From assembly GCA_003134655.1 (NCBI GenBank), contig PLBY01000042.1, positions 1 to 64,000 on the forward strand: DNA of 64,000 nt. Direction: 5' to 3'. Under the pieces are notes generated by a model. The model had not been told where the DNA came from. It worked only from the letters and a program-made list of their open reading frames with translations, and ran no database searches. Source of the stretch: Acidobacteriaceae bacterium (lineage in GTDB: Bacteria > Acidobacteriota > Terriglobia > Terriglobales > Acidobacteriaceae). The position numbers and the translations under genes were made by a program. Positions 6,140 to 56,394 of the stretch are shown here, piece by piece. The stretch's first letter is position 1. Every line of letters begins with the position of its first letter.

Positions 6140-6700
<561 letters not shown>

Positions 6701-6768
6701 CTGTCAGCCGTCAGCCATCAGCTGTCAGCAAATCAGATCCGTGTGGGGACAGCCGCCTTCGGCTGTCC
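6701..6768. repeat. Heptamer array plus one end of the GTGGGGACAGCC repeat
   Basis: Directly after the nuoB stop (about 6702-6728) is an array of CAGCCGT/CAGCCAT/CAGCTGT-type heptamers. At 6742-6768 is a copy of the terminal repeat of the 46 kb element (TGTGGGGACAGCCGCC and onward), followed by a GCCGAGCGCAGCTCGGC hairpin. An apparent upstream start of the next gene (6743) falls inside this repeat and is therefore disfavoured. Confidence 0.7.
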
Positions 6769-13380: not shown

Positions 13381-14073
13381 TTAGAAGTGCTCGCGGAGTT
13401 CGGCGAAGCGGCCAACGATGAGGAGTTTCTGTTTCGGAGGAGCGGAGTTGACCTCTTCGTGTTCCAGGATCCAGGTGTTGCCGTGAGAAACGAAGACGGC
13501 ATGCAGGCCCGCGGCCATCGCGGGATTAATGTCGGACTTCGGGCTGTTGCCGACCATCCACGTCATATCGGGCTCGAGGTCGTGTTTCTCGACCACGCAC
13601 GCGTAGGCTACCGGATCCTTCTCGGCCACGATTTCGACAGACGCGAAATATTCCCGCAGACCGGAACGCTCGACCTTGCCCGACTGCTCGGCGATCGCTC
13701 CCTTCGTCATCAGGATCAGATCGTGTCGCTGCGATAGGTACTGCAGGGTCTCAGGCACTTCGGGCAAAAGCTCGACGGGATGCGCAGAGATCGTATGCGC
13801 AAAGCTGTGGATCTGGGCGTGCGACTCAGGCGTAACCGGGCCGACGCTAAGGCGTTCGAAGGTATCAACCAACGCATGCGCGAAACTGTGCAAGCCGTAA
13901 CCGTGCTTCACGATGCATTCGCGTTCCACGTCGTTGAGCACTTCGCGCACTTGCTCGGGAGGGAACTCGTGGTGATTCAGGAACGAGATGAACTGCGCGA
14001 TGGCGCGCTCGAAATAGATGTTGTTCTCCCAGAGCGTGTCGTCGGCGTCGATGAGGAGGGTTTGGGGAAGCAA
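13381..14073 (-). CDS. HAD family hydrolase (nucleotidase/phosphatase-like)
   Basis: About 230 aa from a TTG at 14073. A TTG at 14121 would extend the protein through a heptamer repeat and is less likely. Motif I is DADDTLWE, motif II is in LILMTKGA, and motif III/IV is in MVGNSPKSDINPA, which together make a complete HAD phosphatase core with an inserted helical cap. It resembles YjjG-type nucleotidases or phosphoglycolate-type phosphatases, but the substrate cannot be fixed. It is the gene just upstream of the HD-GYP gene on the same strand. Confidence 0.85.
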   Translation of the reverse strand: MLPQTLLIDADDTLWENNIYFERAIAQFISFLNHHEFPPEQVREVLNDVERECIVKHGYGLHSFAHALVDTFERLSVGPVTPESHAQIHSFAHTISAHPVELLPEVPETLQYLSQRHDLILMTKGAIAEQSGKVERSGLREYFASVEIVAEKDPVAYACVVEKHDLEPDMTWMVGNSPKSDINPAMAAGLHAVFVSHGNTWILEHEEVNSAPPKQKLLIVGRFAELREHF

Positions 14074-14074
14074 G

Positions 14075-14115
14075 CTTTTGGCTCTTAGCTCTTGGCTGTT
14101 AGCTCTTAGCTCAAA
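14075..14115. repeat. Heptamer tandem array (AGCTCTT units)
   Basis: Five or six imperfect copies of a 7 bp unit (GGCTCTT, AGCTCTT, GGCTGTT, AGCTCTT) are immediately upstream of the HAD coding region on its strand. The same type of unit is seen at 30845-30862, 35642-35671 and 53120-53183. This is one arm only; no inverted partner is near. Confidence 0.8.
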
Positions 14116-14217
14116 TCCCAACGTCTCAGGCTTTTTGGGACCTCGCAGAGCAGTGACTACATTTCTTGGCGACAGTTTTGGCTAACGTGAACGAGGAGCT
14201 CCAGATAAGAGCTTCCC

Positions 14218-16540: not shown

Positions 16541-19033
16541 CTACGCCGAAGTCGCCGCCGCATCCGGCTGCGGTGCGGGCCGCTCGAAGTCGCACTCTTT
16601 GTTCGGACACGCGATCACCGGGCCGGCCTTCAGATTCTTCTCGACCAGATATTCGCTGCCGCACGCAGGACATTTTTCCGCGATGGGCTTGTGCGCCGAA
16701 GTGAACTTGCAGTTGGGGTAGTTTCCGCAACCGTAGAACGTGTTCCCCTTGCGCGCCCGCTTCTCGACCAGATCGCCGTCTTTGCAGTCCGGACACTTTA
16801 CGCCGATGAAGTTCTGCTTCACGTACTTGCACTCGGGGTATCCGCTGCAGGTGGTGAACTCGCCATAACGCCCGTGGCGGATCATCATATTGCGTCCGCA
16901 CTTTGGGCAAAGCTCGTCAAGCGGAATGTCGGGCACCTTCTTGCCCTGATCCAGACGGCGCGTGGTCTTGCAGTCGGGATATCCCGTGCAGGCCATGAAC
17001 TGGCCGAAGCGCCCGCGCTTCAACACCATCACGCGGCCGCAGTTTTCGCAGTATTCCTCCTGCGTAGTCTCCTGCACATCGGCCGAATCGAGGTCTGGCA
17101 GGTTGATCGGGTTTTCTTTAGTGAAGGTGCAGGTGTCCTTGTCTTCTTTATCGTAGGTGCTGCACGCGTAGAACGATCCGTGCTTGCCCCACTTGATGAC
17201 CAGCGGCGCGCCACAGCGTTCGCACTTCTCGTCTGTGGGCTTCTCCATCCGCTTGATGTTCTCCATATGCTTTTCGGCATATTTGAGATCTTTCAGGAAC
17301 TTCTTATAGAAATCGGCGAGAGTGTCCTGCCACGTCTCTTTGCCTTCTTCGATCTGGTCGAGTTCTTCTTCCAGGTGCGCGGTGTATTGCACGTCGAAAA
17401 TGTCGCGGAAGTTCTCCACCAGCAGATCGGTGACGACCAGGCCAATCTCGGTCGGGGAGAACTTTCCACCGACCTTCTGCACATACTGCCGCTCCTGGAT
17501 GGTCGTGAGAATCGCGGCGTAGGTTGAAGGGCGGCCAATGCCACGCTCTTCGAGTTCTTTCACCAGCGACGCTTCGTTGTAGCGCGGAGGCGGTTCGGTG
17601 AAATGCTGCTCGGGCTTCAGTTCCTTGAGCGTGAGTTTCTGCCCGGCTTCGAGCGCAGGCAGTTTGTGCTTCAGTTCCTCGTCTTCTTCGTCCTTGCCTT
17701 CCTTCGACTCTTCGTAGACGCGGAGGAAGCCGTCGAACTTGAGCACCGATCCGGTGACGCGGAACCAGAAGACTTCGTTGCTGTTCTTAGCATCGATGTC
17801 GACCGTGGTCTGATCGAAGACTGCCGGGTTAATCTGCGAAGCGACGAAGCGCTGCCAGATCAACTTGTAGACCTTGAACTCGTCTTCTTTTAGGTACTGC
17901 TTGAGCTGGTCGGGATGGCGCATCGCCGAAGTCGGACGGATCGCCTCGTGAGCACCCTGCGAGTCCTTCTTCTCTTTGAATGTGTTGGGCGTCTCGGGAA
18001 GGTAGGTCGGGCCATATTCCTTGCCAACGTATTCGCGGACTTCCTGGATGGCCTCAGGCGCGACGCGCGTTGAGTCAGTACGCATGTAGGTGATCAGACC
18101 GACGAGGCCTTCTTCACCGAGTTCCACGCCTTCATACAGGCGCTGCGCGATCATCATGCTGCGTTTCACGCTGAAGCGGAGCTTGCGGGAAGAGTCCTGT
18201 TGCAGTTTGCTGGTGGTGAAAGGTGGCGCGGCGTTGCGGCGGCGCTCTTTCTTGTCAACCGATCGGACGACCCAGTCGGCTGTTTCCAGAGCAGCACGAA
18301 TCTTCTCGGCGTCTTCACCGTTGGTGACTTCGACCCTCTCTTCGCCCTTGCCCACAAAGCGGGCATCGAAGGCGGGCGGCTTGCTCGCGGCGAGGTGAGC
18401 GTCGATGGTCCAGTACTCGACTTTTTGGAACGCCTTGATCTCGCGTTCGCGTTCGACAATCAGGCGCAGCGCAACGGTTTGCACACGGCCGGCCGAGAGA
18501 CCACGGCGGACTTTGTCCCAAAGCAGTGGGGAGACTTGATATCCCACGAGCCGGTCGAGCACACGGCGGGCCTGCTGGGCGTCGACCAGGTTCTGATCGA
18601 TAGCGCGCGGGTGTTCAAACGCGGCCTGCACGGCGCGCTTGGTGATTTCGTTGAAGGTGACGCGCTGAATCCGCGGAGGAGGTGCTTCCTCGCCCTTCTT
18701 CAGCTTCTTGGCTTTCTTCTTCCCCTTACCGCTGTCGCCGAGCTCGAACGCCAGATGGGCGGCGATCGCCTCGCCTTCGCGGTCCGGGTCAGGCGCTAGA
18801 TAGATGGAGTCGGCCGAGGCCGCCAGCTTCTTCAGCTTGGCAACAACTTTCTCTTTGCCGGGGATGACGACGTAATCCGTCTCGAAGCCGTTGGTGATAT
18901 CGACGCCCAGAGTGCTCTTGGGCAGATCTTTCACGTGGCCGAGCGAGGCTTCGACGGTGAAGCCCTTGCCCAGATATTTCTGGATGGTCTTCGCCTTGGC
19001 CGGCGATTCGACAATGACTAAACCTTTTGACAA
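16541..19033 (-). CDS. topA: DNA topoisomerase I (type IA)
   Basis: 830 aa from a TTG start with GAGG close upstream. The TOPRIM acidic motif DPDREGE is at residues 82-88 and the catalytic tyrosine is Tyr316 in TYMRTDSTR. The C-terminus carries five Cys4 zinc-ribbon-like modules, each starting CxxC and ending with a distal Cys pair. The enzyme relaxes negative supercoils and is essential in most bacteria. It is usually adjacent to dprA; here a four-helix-bundle cassette intervenes. Confidence 0.97.
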   Translation of the reverse strand: MSKGLVIVESPAKAKTIQKYLGKGFTVEASLGHVKDLPKSTLGVDITNGFETDYVVIPGKEKVVAKLKKLAASADSIYLAPDPDREGEAIAAHLAFELGDSGKGKKKAKKLKKGEEAPPPRIQRVTFNEITKRAVQAAFEHPRAIDQNLVDAQQARRVLDRLVGYQVSPLLWDKVRRGLSAGRVQTVALRLIVEREREIKAFQKVEYWTIDAHLAASKPPAFDARFVGKGEERVEVTNGEDAEKIRAALETADWVVRSVDKKERRRNAAPPFTTSKLQQDSSRKLRFSVKRSMMIAQRLYEGVELGEEGLVGLITYMRTDSTRVAPEAIQEVREYVGKEYGPTYLPETPNTFKEKKDSQGAHEAIRPTSAMRHPDQLKQYLKEDEFKVYKLIWQRFVASQINPAVFDQTTVDIDAKNSNEVFWFRVTGSVLKFDGFLRVYEESKEGKDEEDEELKHKLPALEAGQKLTLKELKPEQHFTEPPPRYNEASLVKELEERGIGRPSTYAAILTTIQERQYVQKVGGKFSPTEIGLVVTDLLVENFRDIFDVQYTAHLEEELDQIEEGKETWQDTLADFYKKFLKDLKYAEKHMENIKRMEKPTDEKCERCGAPLVIKWGKHGSFYACSTYDKEDKDTCTFTKENPINLPDLDSADVQETTQEEYCENCGRVMVLKRGRFGQFMACTGYPDCKTTRRLDQGKKVPDIPLDELCPKCGRNMMIRHGRYGEFTTCSGYPECKYVKQNFIGVKCPDCKDGDLVEKRARKGNTFYGCGNYPNCKFTSAHKPIAEKCPACGSEYLVEKNLKAGPVIACPNKECDFERPAPQPDAAATSA

Positions 19034-19105: not shown

Positions 19106-19534
19106 GAAGCTGTCAGCTATCAGTTATCAGCTCTCAGCTTTTGCGTGAGCGATGCAAGCATCCTCTTTACCTCTACAGCCTCGTCCGAAAGTCGCTGATA
19201 ATCGGAGGCTTTGAGCAACTCCAGGTCACGCGCCAGCAGCAGGTGATACTCCAATTCGCTGGCTGAACCCACGGCAATCTGGAGGAAGCGCGCAAAATCG
19301 GCATCGCCTCTTCTACAGGCGCCCTCGGCGATGTTTGCGCCGATCGATACCGATGCTCTCCGCATATGGCTGGTCATGCCATACATCTCGTCCCGTGGGA
19401 ATGATTTGCTGGCTTTATAGACATCGAGAGTCAGAGAATGCGCTTTTTCCCAAACCTTAAGATTTCTGAAATCCTGCACGCAACCTCCTTCACGGTATAA
19501 AGCTGAGAGCTGACGGCTGATAGCTGACAGCTTT
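19106..19534. mobile_element. IVS-like cassette: four-helix-bundle gene inside inverted heptamer arrays
   Basis: Terminal arms at 19106-19141 and 19499-19534 are reverse complements at 32 of 36 positions. Each arm is made of imperfect AGCTNTC heptamers. Between them lies a single gene of the family found in 23S rRNA intervening sequences, whose ORFs are likewise enclosed by complementary ends. The right arm starts at the dprA stop codon, so the 429 bp unit fills the gap between dprA and topA, genes that are commonly adjacent. Insertion as a unit is an inference. Confidence 0.65.
19120..19479 (-). CDS. Four-helix-bundle protein (23S rRNA IVS protein family)
   Basis: 119 aa, from a GTG with a strong GGAGGT site. 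The sequence carries the family pattern: FRNLKVWEKAHSL, FPRDEMYGMTSHMRRASVSI, GANIAEGACRR, then a long helix with SASELEYHLLLARDL. These proteins form pentameric four-helix bundles and are encoded in intervening sequences of some 23S rRNA genes, and elsewhere as solitary genes; the related Avd protein serves diversity-generating retroelements. No reverse transcriptase is nearby. The last six codons and the stop lie inside the left inverted repeat. Confidence 0.92.
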   Translation of the reverse strand: MQDFRNLKVWEKAHSLTLDVYKASKSFPRDEMYGMTSHMRRASVSIGANIAEGACRRGDADFARFLQIAVGSASELEYHLLLARDLELLKASDYQRLSDEAVEVKRMLASLTQKLRADN

Positions 19535-20694
19535 CAGAAGCTTTTCACAAAATTCTTCCCCGGCATTTGCCTGACTTTGCCGGCCAGTTCCAGTTCGAAC
19601 AGGGCGGCAAAGATTTCGGAAGACGACAATTGGTTCTCCAGCTTTTCGACAATTTCGTCGATGTGCGTGGCTTCGTCGGCTTTCAGCAGGCTCAGGATTC
19701 GCTTTTCGTGAGGAGGGAGCCCTTCGTCCGGGAATAGAGATGCGGAGGATGCGCCCGAGGATTCAGGCGAGGCGGGAGGAGTCAATGCAAGTCGTACTTC
19801 TGCCGGGAGATCTTCCCACACGTCTTCCCAGGTCGCGACCAGCTTGGCGCCTTGTTTGATGAGCGTGTTCGGTCCCCAGGAATTCTTGTTGGTGACGTTC
19901 CCGGGCACGGCGAAAACGTCACGATTCTGTTCGAGCGCGCAGCGAGCGGTGATGCGCGTGCCGGAATATTCTGCGGCTTCGACGACGAGCACGCCGACCG
20001 ACATACCGCTGATGATCCGGTTCCGAATGGGGAAGTTTTGCGGCGCGGCAAACGTTCCCAAAGGAAATTCAGAGATCAGGGCACCGCCAAACGCCAGAAT
20101 CTGCTCCGACAGTCGCGAGTTTTCTTTGGGATAGATGACGTCGACGCCCGTGCCAAACACCGCAACCGTCTTGCCTTTGGCGGAGATCGCGCCGCGGTGG
20201 CTGGCGGTGTCAACGCCGCGCGCCATACCACTAATAATGACCAGACCTTGCGCGGCAAGGTCGCATGCCAGACGCTCGGCCATGCCGGAGCCATAGGGCG
20301 TGGGATGCCGCGTTCCGACCATGGCGATGCCGGGCCTGGTAAGCACCTCGGGATTGCCGCGGACGCGGAGGATCAGCGGCGGATCGTAGATTTCTTTCAG
20401 GCGCTGCGGGTACGACGGATCGTCCATCGAGAGCAGCGTGATGTCCGCCGCGGCAGCCTGTGAGATCTCTTCCCGCGCCAGTTCCGCGGACTTGCCTGTG
20501 GCCAGTGACTGCGCAGACACGGCTTGAATGCCGGTGGCCTCAAGCTCGGTCAACGAAGCGCGGAAGACGGCATCCGGAGAACCGAAATGCTCAACCAGCT
20601 TGCGCGATTTCGTCGGCCCGAGGCCGGGGGTCAGCGAGATGGCCAGCCACTCCAGAAGATGGGTCGCTGCGGGGAATACTGCGGCGTGCGACAA
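19534..20694 (-). CDS. dprA: DNA-processing protein DprA (Smf)
   Basis: 386 aa from a TTG; no better start is visible. The Rossmann-like DprA core has MVGTRHPTPYGSGMAERL, the signature SGMARGVDTASHRGA and GVDVIYPKEN. An N-terminal helical domain and a C-terminal winged-helix-like DML1 domain (about residues 320-386) flank it. DprA loads RecA on incoming single-stranded DNA during natural transformation. Its stop codon abuts the right arm of the cassette described at 19106-19534. Confidence 0.95.
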   Translation of the reverse strand: MSHAAVFPAATHLLEWLAISLTPGLGPTKSRKLVEHFGSPDAVFRASLTELEATGIQAVSAQSLATGKSAELAREEISQAAAADITLLSMDDPSYPQRLKEIYDPPLILRVRGNPEVLTRPGIAMVGTRHPTPYGSGMAERLACDLAAQGLVIISGMARGVDTASHRGAISAKGKTVAVFGTGVDVIYPKENSRLSEQILAFGGALISEFPLGTFAAPQNFPIRNRIISGMSVGVLVVEAAEYSGTRITARCALEQNRDVFAVPGNVTNKNSWGPNTLIKQGAKLVATWEDVWEDLPAEVRLALTPPASPESSGASSASLFPDEGLPPHEKRILSLLKADEATHIDEIVEKLENQLSSSEIFAALFELELAGKVRQMPGKNFVKSF

Positions 20695-35624: not shown

Positions 35625-35641
35625 ATCGAACCCCCTTTTAG

Positions 35642-35671
35642 TTTCTAGATGCTAGCTTCTAGCTTTTAGCC
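35642..35671. repeat. Short tandem array (CTAGCTT units) overlapping a stop codon
   Basis: Imperfect units CTAGATG, CTAGCTT, CTAGCTT, TTAGCC lie between pspA and the glycine-zipper gene before it; the latter's stop codon falls inside the array. Confidence 0.65.
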
Positions 35672-47644: not shown

Positions 47645-47723
47645 GCGTCCGGCTTCCGGCATCCGGCTTCCGGTTCGAAGCGCTTATCCGTATACCGGAA
47701 GCCGAGAGCCGGAAGCCGGACGC
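47645..47723. repeat. Inverted pair of CCGGCTT heptamer arrays
   Basis: The arms at 47645-47674 and 47694-47723 match as reverse complements at 27 of 30 positions, separated by 19 bp. Each arm consists of heptamers such as CCGGCTT/CCGGCAT. CTTTTAG follows the right arm, so it could act as a terminator between the adaptor and permease genes. Confidence 0.85.
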
Positions 47724-47737
47724 CTTTTAGGACCGTT

Positions 47738-52236: not shown

Positions 52237-52331
52237 GTAGCGTCGGCACCTTGCCGGCTGTCGCGGGGGCGTCCCGCCCGCGCTGCGGCGGCGAGACGCC
52301 GCCACGACAGCCGCCGGGACGGCGGCGCTAC
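52237..52331. repeat. GC-rich palindromic element (GTAGCG ends)
   Basis: The ends GTAGCG (52237) and CGCTAC (52331) are complementary, and nested GC-rich hairpins between them (GGGGCGTCCCGCCC, GGCGGCGAGACGCCGCC, CCGCCGGGACGGCGG) allow a long cruciform. It is a single copy in this window, located between the SAM-hydrolase gene and a small gene on the other strand. Confidence 0.6.
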
Positions 52332-56285: not shown

Positions 56286-56302
56286 TATGAAGACCGAGGG
56301 TT

Positions 56303-56389
56303 CCAAAGTTTCAAGGTTTCAGAGTTTCAAGGTTTCAAAGTCCCGAAGGATTGCTCCTTGAAACTTTGAAACCTTGTCACCTTGAAACC
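56303..56389. repeat. Inverted pair of TTTCAAGG octamer arrays between pilC and pilS
   Basis: The left side has TTTCAAGG/TTTCAGAG/TTTCAAGG/TTTCAAAG units and the right side has the complementary CTTGAAACTTTGAAACC type. It forms a long hairpin in the gap between pilC and pilS and may separate their expression. Confidence 0.8.
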
Positions 56390-56394
56390 TGCTT

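Follow-up and report, generated by a model that had tools for sequence, protein, structure and literature searches.

Genes of the 23S rRNA intervening-sequence protein family commonly lie between inverted tandem-repeat arms, which suggests a miniature mobile system

In the stretch of 64,000 nucleotides analysed here (the window), a gene of the 23S rRNA intervening-sequence protein (IVP) family, enclosed by inverted arms, lies between dprA and topA, which raises the question of what kind of unit this is and whether the gene and the arms belong together. A preliminary description had read it as an intervening-sequence gene with complementary ends, and this part is indeed borne out by the sequence. 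The ORF matched PF05635 (23S_rRNA_IVP) with an E-value of 2.3e-38 and 131.1 bits against a cut-off of 33.8, and TIGR02436 (four helix bundle) was also matched; PF05635 was the only family found in the protein, and no transposase, including the Y1 tyrosine transposase, was found within the unit. The two inverted arms, 35 nt each, are 91% complementary; in gene orientation the 5' arm consists of the tandem heptads AGCTGTC, AGCTATC, AGCCGTC and AGCTCTC followed by AGCT, and the 3' arm is approximately its reverse complement. The statement of the preliminary description that the unit exactly fills the space between dprA and topA had to be amended: the unit starts at the dprA stop codon but leaves 73 nt before the start of topA, and the final part of the ORF lies within the 3' arm. 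An Rfam scan of the window returned no matches, and the element is located between two protein genes, not inside an rRNA gene. The features of the window are collected in Table 1.

Table 1. Positions of the IVP element, its neighbours and related repeat arrays in the window
Feature	Positions	Strand	Basis
IVP gene (PF05635 / TIGR02436), 119 aa, GTG start, AAGGAGG ribosome site	19120..19479	-	profile matches and fold model
5' arm: tandem array of the 7-nt unit AGCTRTC (about five copies), about 12 nt ahead of the ribosome site	19499..19533	-	sequence
3' arm: the 5' arm inverted, overlapping the last codons of the gene	19107..19141	-	sequence
dprA, upstream neighbour; stop codon abuts the 5' arm	19534..20694	-	ORF and profile match
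topA, downstream neighbour	16541..19033	-	ORF and profile match
Gene-less inverted pair, GGCTTCC arrays; unit of the IVP paralog at G000:C139:266906	47645..47724	.	
Gene-less inverted pair, AAGGTTTC (8-nt) arrays; unit of the IVP paralog at G000:C111:29185	56300..56390	.	
Solo array, AGCTGTC class	6699..6729	.	
Solo array, GGCTCTT/AGCTCTT class	14074..14112	.	
Solo array, AGCTTCT-like	35636..35670	.	

The arms are not peculiar to this place. The pattern (AGCTNNN)3, which equals its own reverse complement, was found with at most one mismatch at 262 overlapping sites in the genome of the window (G000), against 29 for the reversed control. Dispersal on this scale means that the window arms are not unique terminal repeats, and their reading as the terminal repeats of an insertion sequence was rejected, since each is built from a unit that is dispersed in the genome.

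Whether gene and arms go together was examined in IVP loci from 93 places in relatives (a subset of all the matches listed there), the best 80 of 579 relatives among named genomes of many phyla, 30 viral contigs, 30 loci of the phylum and six loci on cyanobacterial plasmids. Other copies of the gene with conserved flanking arms, for which the preliminary description had proposed a search, turned out to be common. When the left arm was compared with the reverse complement of the right arm, a score of at least 16 was reached by 114 of 142 non-redundant loci from many phyla, the remaining 28 staying below it; these 142 were kept from 163, those with flanks under 200 bp or with an ORF nearly identical to another being left out. 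The same score was reached by 14 of 142 loci in direct orientation, by 69 of 1410 random pairings with the arm of another locus and by 1 of 533 shifted places, and in the subset of relatives by 41 of 50 IVP loci versus none of 194 shifted controls. Period-7 arrays (score at least 14, within 300 nt) were present on 41% of 103 IVP sides in relatives, 35% of 150 sides on genome contigs and 38% of 60 on viral contigs, while places shifted by 1 or 2.5 kb had them on 0-4% of sides, and once on 11%. Among the other periods, 8 and 9 were rare in the IVP flanks, and 14 was also high because it is a multiple of 7. A chance origin of the association was rejected by the shifted and permuted controls, and the association of the IVP gene with arms is, as we see it, beyond doubt. 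The family itself is widespread, as PF05635 was present in 75 of 149 genomes drawn from the phylum of the window, and Rfam detected no rRNA in any of 34 other IVP loci scanned. Inverted arms were also seen in five of the six cyanobacterial plasmid loci, the Pseudanabaena copy having direct arrays; this copy (L441, 1390-1960) lies between cas6 and cas4 with long AAAAGCT-type direct arrays, and a Nostoc edaphicum plasmid (L439, 1400-1900) has an IVP gene with AGTAGGG arms between the genes for the beta and alpha subunits of ribonucleotide reductase.

The anatomy of the arms is regular in length and copy number, although the unit sequences themselves vary widely among IVP loci. A score of 9 was reached by 174 5' arms and 176 3' arms among 233 loci, and by both arms in 146; in 144 of the latter the unit length was equal in both arms (7 nt in 127 loci, 8 nt in 15 and 9 nt in 2). 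The dinucleotide AG, read from outside to inside, occurred in 98 of 125 distinct 7-nt consensus units, of which about half would be expected under a rough composition model. The copy number, in which a started unit is counted, peaked at five, both for 7-nt units (143 of 304 arms) and for 8-nt units (16 of 39), and of the seven arms with 9-nt units two had four copies and two had five; the corresponding median arm lengths were 31, 36 and 39 nt. Single arms can be far longer, reaching about 30 units, and one IVP locus of a relative (L211, in G010) has very long arms of about 170 and 155 nt, made of TCAGTTC-type heptads.

A possible explanation of the number five is offered by the protein. The fold model of the window IVP was predicted with a pLDDT of 96, and its best structural match was 2gsc (XCC0516) with a TM-score of 0.93, followed in order by 2rld, by Avd (4dwl, TM 0.78) and by Avd-like chains of a ribonucleoprotein of diversity-generating retroelements (DGRs). 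Both solved relatives, 2gsc and 2rld, have five chains, and Avd is a pentamer. If the IVP were likewise a pentamer and each subunit engaged one repeat unit, a peak at five copies would follow. The Avd profile gave the window protein a weak match of 21.9 bits, below the family cut-off of 80.

The arms and genes were found to vary together. Between loci whose IVPs are 20-35% identical, a mean of 3.4 of 7 unit letters agreed, and between those with 70-80% identity the mean was 6.0 of 7. When one unit was reverse-complemented, the similarity remained flat, at 3.4-3.8, across the range of protein identity, which indicates that the polarity of the unit is kept. Unit length behaved in the same manner: for loci with 8- or 9-nt units, the nearest protein neighbour had the same unit length in 13 of 26 cases (2000 shuffles, mean 2.4, maximum 9), and in 10 of 26 when only neighbours of less than 70% identity were considered (shuffle mean 2.4, maximum 10). 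For this analysis 184 of the 233 loci were used, the others being left out because the aligned stretch contained a stop, the protein had fewer than 90 aa or was identical to another, one of the flanks was too short, or neither arm reached score 9. The degree of sharing also depends on the surroundings. Among IVP pairs of 60-80% identity, at least 6 of 7 unit letters were common in 81 of 141 pairs with flank homology and in 70 of 256 without detectable flank homology; above 80% identity without flank homology the proportion was 1 of 4, and at 35-45% identity only 1-2% of pairs had as many letters in common. The lower sharing in the absence of flank homology means that at unrelated sites unit and protein are less tightly linked. 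Among the columns of the protein alignment, none showed a significant association with the unit (best z 3.4, with a null maximum of about 4.5). Taken together, these comparisons show that the unit and the IVP protein belong together.

The dprA-topA junction allows the same relation to be followed at one place. Across the genus, 41 genomes were searched, 34 of which had a TopA match, and these gave 30 junction loci; an IVP match, in some cases broken, was present in 26 of the 30, the window's own genome included, which argues that the element is not a recent insertion there. Of the other four junctions, L095 has a short array only, L093 a decayed remnant between arms, L084 a short gap and L083 other DNA. 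Relatives do have arms at this junction, and a situation in which all of them carry the gene there without arms, which would have spoken against the preliminary description, was not encountered. The type of unit follows the type of protein: junction IVPs starting with MQDF or MQSF have mostly AGCTRTC-like units, those starting with MEDF have AGCTKCT units, and those starting with MRNY have mostly GGCTCTT or AGCTYTT. For 22 of the 26 alleles (four with split matches were left out), unit similarity correlated with IVP identity at r 0.65, the best of 2000 permutations giving 0.335, whereas the correlation with DprA plus TopA identity for the same alleles was -0.06; the co-variation of arms and gene across genomes that the preliminary description had called for is therefore present. 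A particularly clear case is the relative G016, in which both flanking genes are 98% identical to those of the window at the DNA level, over the final 450 nt of dprA (440/450) and the initial 300 nt of topA (294/300), but the element between them is identical at only 252 of 403 positions (62.5%) and has other units. Near-identical flanks around a divergent element indicate that everything between the outer arm ends was replaced, or altered, together as one cassette.

Arms without a gene are also scattered through IVP genomes. A de novo scan of 464 kb of G000, the window included, detected 30 period-7 and 9 period-8 arrays of score at least 12, while a Markov sequence control yielded none and one, respectively. 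All 14 adjacent same-unit pairs in this DNA were inverted; an IVP gene lay inside three, and the other 11 were gene-less, their arms being 11-29 nt apart, except for one pair with a spacer of 179 nt. The 400 kb examined of G018 had nine such adjacent pairs, all inverted, although one of these merely spans the space from one hairpin to the next, and five IVP genomes, counted per period, together had 26 inverted pairs and one direct pair (in G188). The polarity of most reference arms was found in 17 of 19 gene-less pairs. Period-7 arrays numbered 72 in 1464 kb of the five IVP genomes (30 in 464 kb, 16 in 400 kb, and 15, 11 and 0 in 200 kb each) and one in 600 kb of three IVP-less genomes (0, 0 and 1 per 200 kb); the genome with none, G202, has three IVP genes nonetheless. 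One of the solo arrays of the window, at 14074-14112, overlaps the predicted start of the ORF at 13381-14121(-), the first residues of which would thus be encoded by the repeat, and the true start may lie further in.

The abundance of particular units pointed in the same direction, with exceptions. The heptamer GTCGTTG had a median count of 82 in the seven genus genomes in which an IVP with GTCGTT or GTCGTC arms was found and of 20 in the other 30 (p 0.001). AGCATTC was most frequent in G028 (42), the IVP of which (L051) has such arms, yet G002, likewise equipped, had only 10, and G061 and G064, with IVP genes outside the search, had 28 and 27. GGGGACT, the 5' arm unit at the IVP locus of Sphaerospermopsis kisseleviana, a locus itself below the arm-pair score, occurred at 732+660 sites in that genome against 177+177 for the reversed control; in two other cyanobacteria the counts, 55+31 and 89+65, did not exceed their own controls or lay below them, and five non-cyanobacterial IVP genomes had 0 to 7 sites. 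The preliminary description had not foreseen that the arms are tandem 7-nt arrays with a unit that varies with the protein, nor that arm pairs lacking the gene occur throughout the genome; with these, the window unit looks more like the master copy of a repeat family than like a lone cassette. The minimal mobile element of the preliminary description stays plausible.

Presence and absence at orthologous places, a comparison that the preliminary description had proposed for the dprA-topA junction, were both encountered at other intergenic sites, which in relatives were occupied, empty or furnished with another unit. Five sites were compared, picked because G000 has an element there; 5 of 7 relatives were readable at the 47.6 kb site and 6 of 7 at C139:266.7 kb. 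The 47.6 kb site has GGCTTCC in the window, GGACCTC-class arrays in G019, G011 and G022, an AGGTGTT-class hairpin in G063, and a whole IVP gene with AGTCCTG-class arms in G018. At 56.3 kb, AAGGTTTC-class hairpins occur in G000, G016, G018, G022 and G006; the arrays of G019 and G011 are instead of the AGGTCTT class, and G063 has none. At C139:266.7 kb, G000 has an IVP gene with GGCTTCC arms, G011 and G018 have IVP genes with other arms, G019 and G063 a lone GGCTTCC array without the gene, and G016 and G006 no array. At C139:272.9 kb, G000 and G018 have AAGGTTTC hairpins and G016 and G006 hairpins of another class, with no array in G022, G019, G063 and G011. At C139:274.0 kb, the AAGGTTTC class occurs in G000, G016 and G019 and as a variant in G006; G022 and G063 have a hairpin that is not made of heptads, and the site is empty in G011 and G018. 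At this last site, L352 and L354 have a different hairpin class, GTAGAGACGTTGC and its inverted copy, where G000 has the AAGGTTTC hairpin. By eye, no target-site duplication was seen at empty sites, the flanks of which differ. Common sites with exchanged units imply either hot spots or replacement in place.

Three other explanations must be weighed against this body of data. In the first, which we consider improbable, the heptad hairpins are independent repeats that came first, and IVP genes insert preferentially into the loop of an existing hairpin; the gene of G018 at the 47.6 kb site, where other genomes have gene-less arrays, would fit, as would genomes such as G021 (111 GTCGTTG) and G003 (70), which have many arrays and in which no matching IVP was found. 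It is difficult to reconcile, however, with a unit that at dprA-topA tracks the IVP protein and not the genome, and with a unit length that tracks protein similarity. The second, by which simple repeats expand and become homogenized through replication slippage, recombination and gene conversion alone, with the IVP gene as a passenger, is very improbable: although it would agree with the variation in copy number, which in single arms reaches about 30 units, and with species-common sites with exchanged units, slippage leaves unexplained why the arms are of opposite polarity, matched in length and near five in copy number, and why the unit is linked to the protein. The third would keep everything at the RNA level, the arms being processing or regulatory hairpins and the IVP binding the arrays in its own and other mRNAs and controlling the stability or cutting of these, while the arrays spread by recombination or in other ways in which the IVP is not involved. 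Several observations are in its favour. The 5' arm is directly ahead of the ribosome site; dprA, the IVP gene and topA are all on the same strand; the predicted RNA fold of the 441-nt strand closes by pairing of the arms and is more stable than 100 of 100 shuffles (z -4.5); the hairpins at all sites compared sit between genes; and the intervening sequence of Coxiella 23S rRNA is cut by RNase III in vitro (PMC4990558). Nonetheless, it does not account for the dispersal of arrays in genomes with IVP and their near absence in the three samples without it, nor for presence and absence at orthologous sites, and we find it rather unlikely as a complete explanation.

The reading that we prefer, as the data suggest, is that protein and repeats belong to a single mobile system: probably a REPIN-like miniature system, in which a gene-bearing master copy encodes a four-helix adaptor that would recognize its own repeat, binding as well as movement being inferred. 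The window unit would be such a master copy of a miniature hairpin element. Its IVP, a four-helix bundle with the Avd fold, would form a pentamer, each subunit of which binds one repeat unit on nucleic acid that is single-stranded or folded into a hairpin; once bound, it may protect, carry or prime hairpin copies, which host replication or repair enzymes would then put between genes. What propagates would be the hairpin, with or without the gene, and a non-catalytic adaptor would take the place of the transposase in a RAYT/REPIN-like manner of working. In a dprA-IVP-topA transcript the arms would be expected to pair, and RNase III may cut the RNA at this place, as it does in rRNA intervening sequences. 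As to enzymes that could assist, RVT_1 (reverse transcriptase) was matched in G000 on contigs C116 and C145 and not on the contig of the window (C142). In the phylum draw, RVT_1 was present in 32 of 75 IVP genomes versus 15 of 74 without IVP (p 0.005), hence absent from 43 of the 75, and Y1_Tnp in 56 of 75 versus 38 of 74 (p 0.004). Such enrichment makes a helper role possible for either enzyme, but a need for reverse transcriptase or Y1 transposase was rejected, as 15 of the 75 IVP genomes had neither.

Parts of this picture are already in print. In Coxiella burnetii, the 23S rRNA intervening sequence has tandem GACAGAT heptamers before the S23p ORF and a 28-bp terminal stem (PMC4990558). It thus resembles the window element in having a PF05635-type ORF between complementary ends and tandem heptamers, and differs from it in location, the latter being between dprA and topA rather than in an rRNA gene; dispersed gene-less relatives and a match of unit and protein are not described in the available passages of that paper. 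REPINs are dispersed inverted doublets that form hairpins and are linked to a gene flanked by the same repeat (PMC3116915), and the window family likewise has dispersed inverted doublets together with a gene-flanking repeat. However, the gene in that case encodes a tyrosine transposase (RAYT) and the REP repeat is palindromic, whereas the IVP is a four-helix bundle without known catalytic residues and its repeats are tandem arrays of 7-9 nt units. In Xanthomonas, dispersed GGGAATC arrays, mostly of four units and with 70 and 75 convergent pairs in two species, were presented, along with heptameric repeats of Nostoc, as G-quadruplex repeats generally not associated with mobile elements (PMC4692102), and the terms 23S, four helix and intervening are absent from the text of that source. 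IVP genomes also have period-7 arrays that are dispersed between genes and form convergent pairs, and XCC0516 (2gsc) of Xanthomonas is itself an IVP protein. Direct TAACTGA repeats have been described in Beggiatoaceae, a term search of that source revealing no mention of the protein (PMC4679880). Finally, PF05635 has been noted to resemble Avd (PMC10053308); the DGR protein has the fold of the window IVP, but differs in that the window protein scores under the Avd cut-off and its contig has no reverse transcriptase match. No publication joining IVP genes with heptad arms was found in the open-licence PMC literature, preprints being outside the search.

The system proposed here links three subjects known separately, namely a common protein family of no known function, the rRNA intervening sequences and the unexplained heptamer repeats scattered in bacterial genomes. 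If the IVP binds the repeat that flanks its gene, the result would be a mobile system with a non-catalytic, repeat-counting adaptor where a transposase would be expected, and one from which Avd of the DGRs may have come. A wider generalization can be offered tentatively, as a possibility: that a class of selfish elements in many bacterial phyla, plasmids and viral contigs, and perhaps archaea, has a pentameric four-helix protein that reads its own tandem-repeat hairpin, counting five units of it, and thereby propagates it, in which case the rRNA intervening sequences, the S23/IVP family and the Xanthomonas and cyanobacterial heptamers would be faces of one system, and DGR Avd a recruited member.

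Some further repeats were observed in the same DNA. Period-15 arrays of score at least 12 numbered 7 in the 464 kb of G000 and 17 in G018:C4 1-400000 (L299-L318), about as many as the period-7 arrays there. A non-heptad repeat of about 95 bp in the window (52237-52331) has copies of 84-92% identity at many places in G011, G018, G019 and G063, and a repeat of about 48 bp (L292, 12196-12245; G000:C139, about 272.2 kb) has copies of 91-100% identity at many places in G018, G016, G011 and others.
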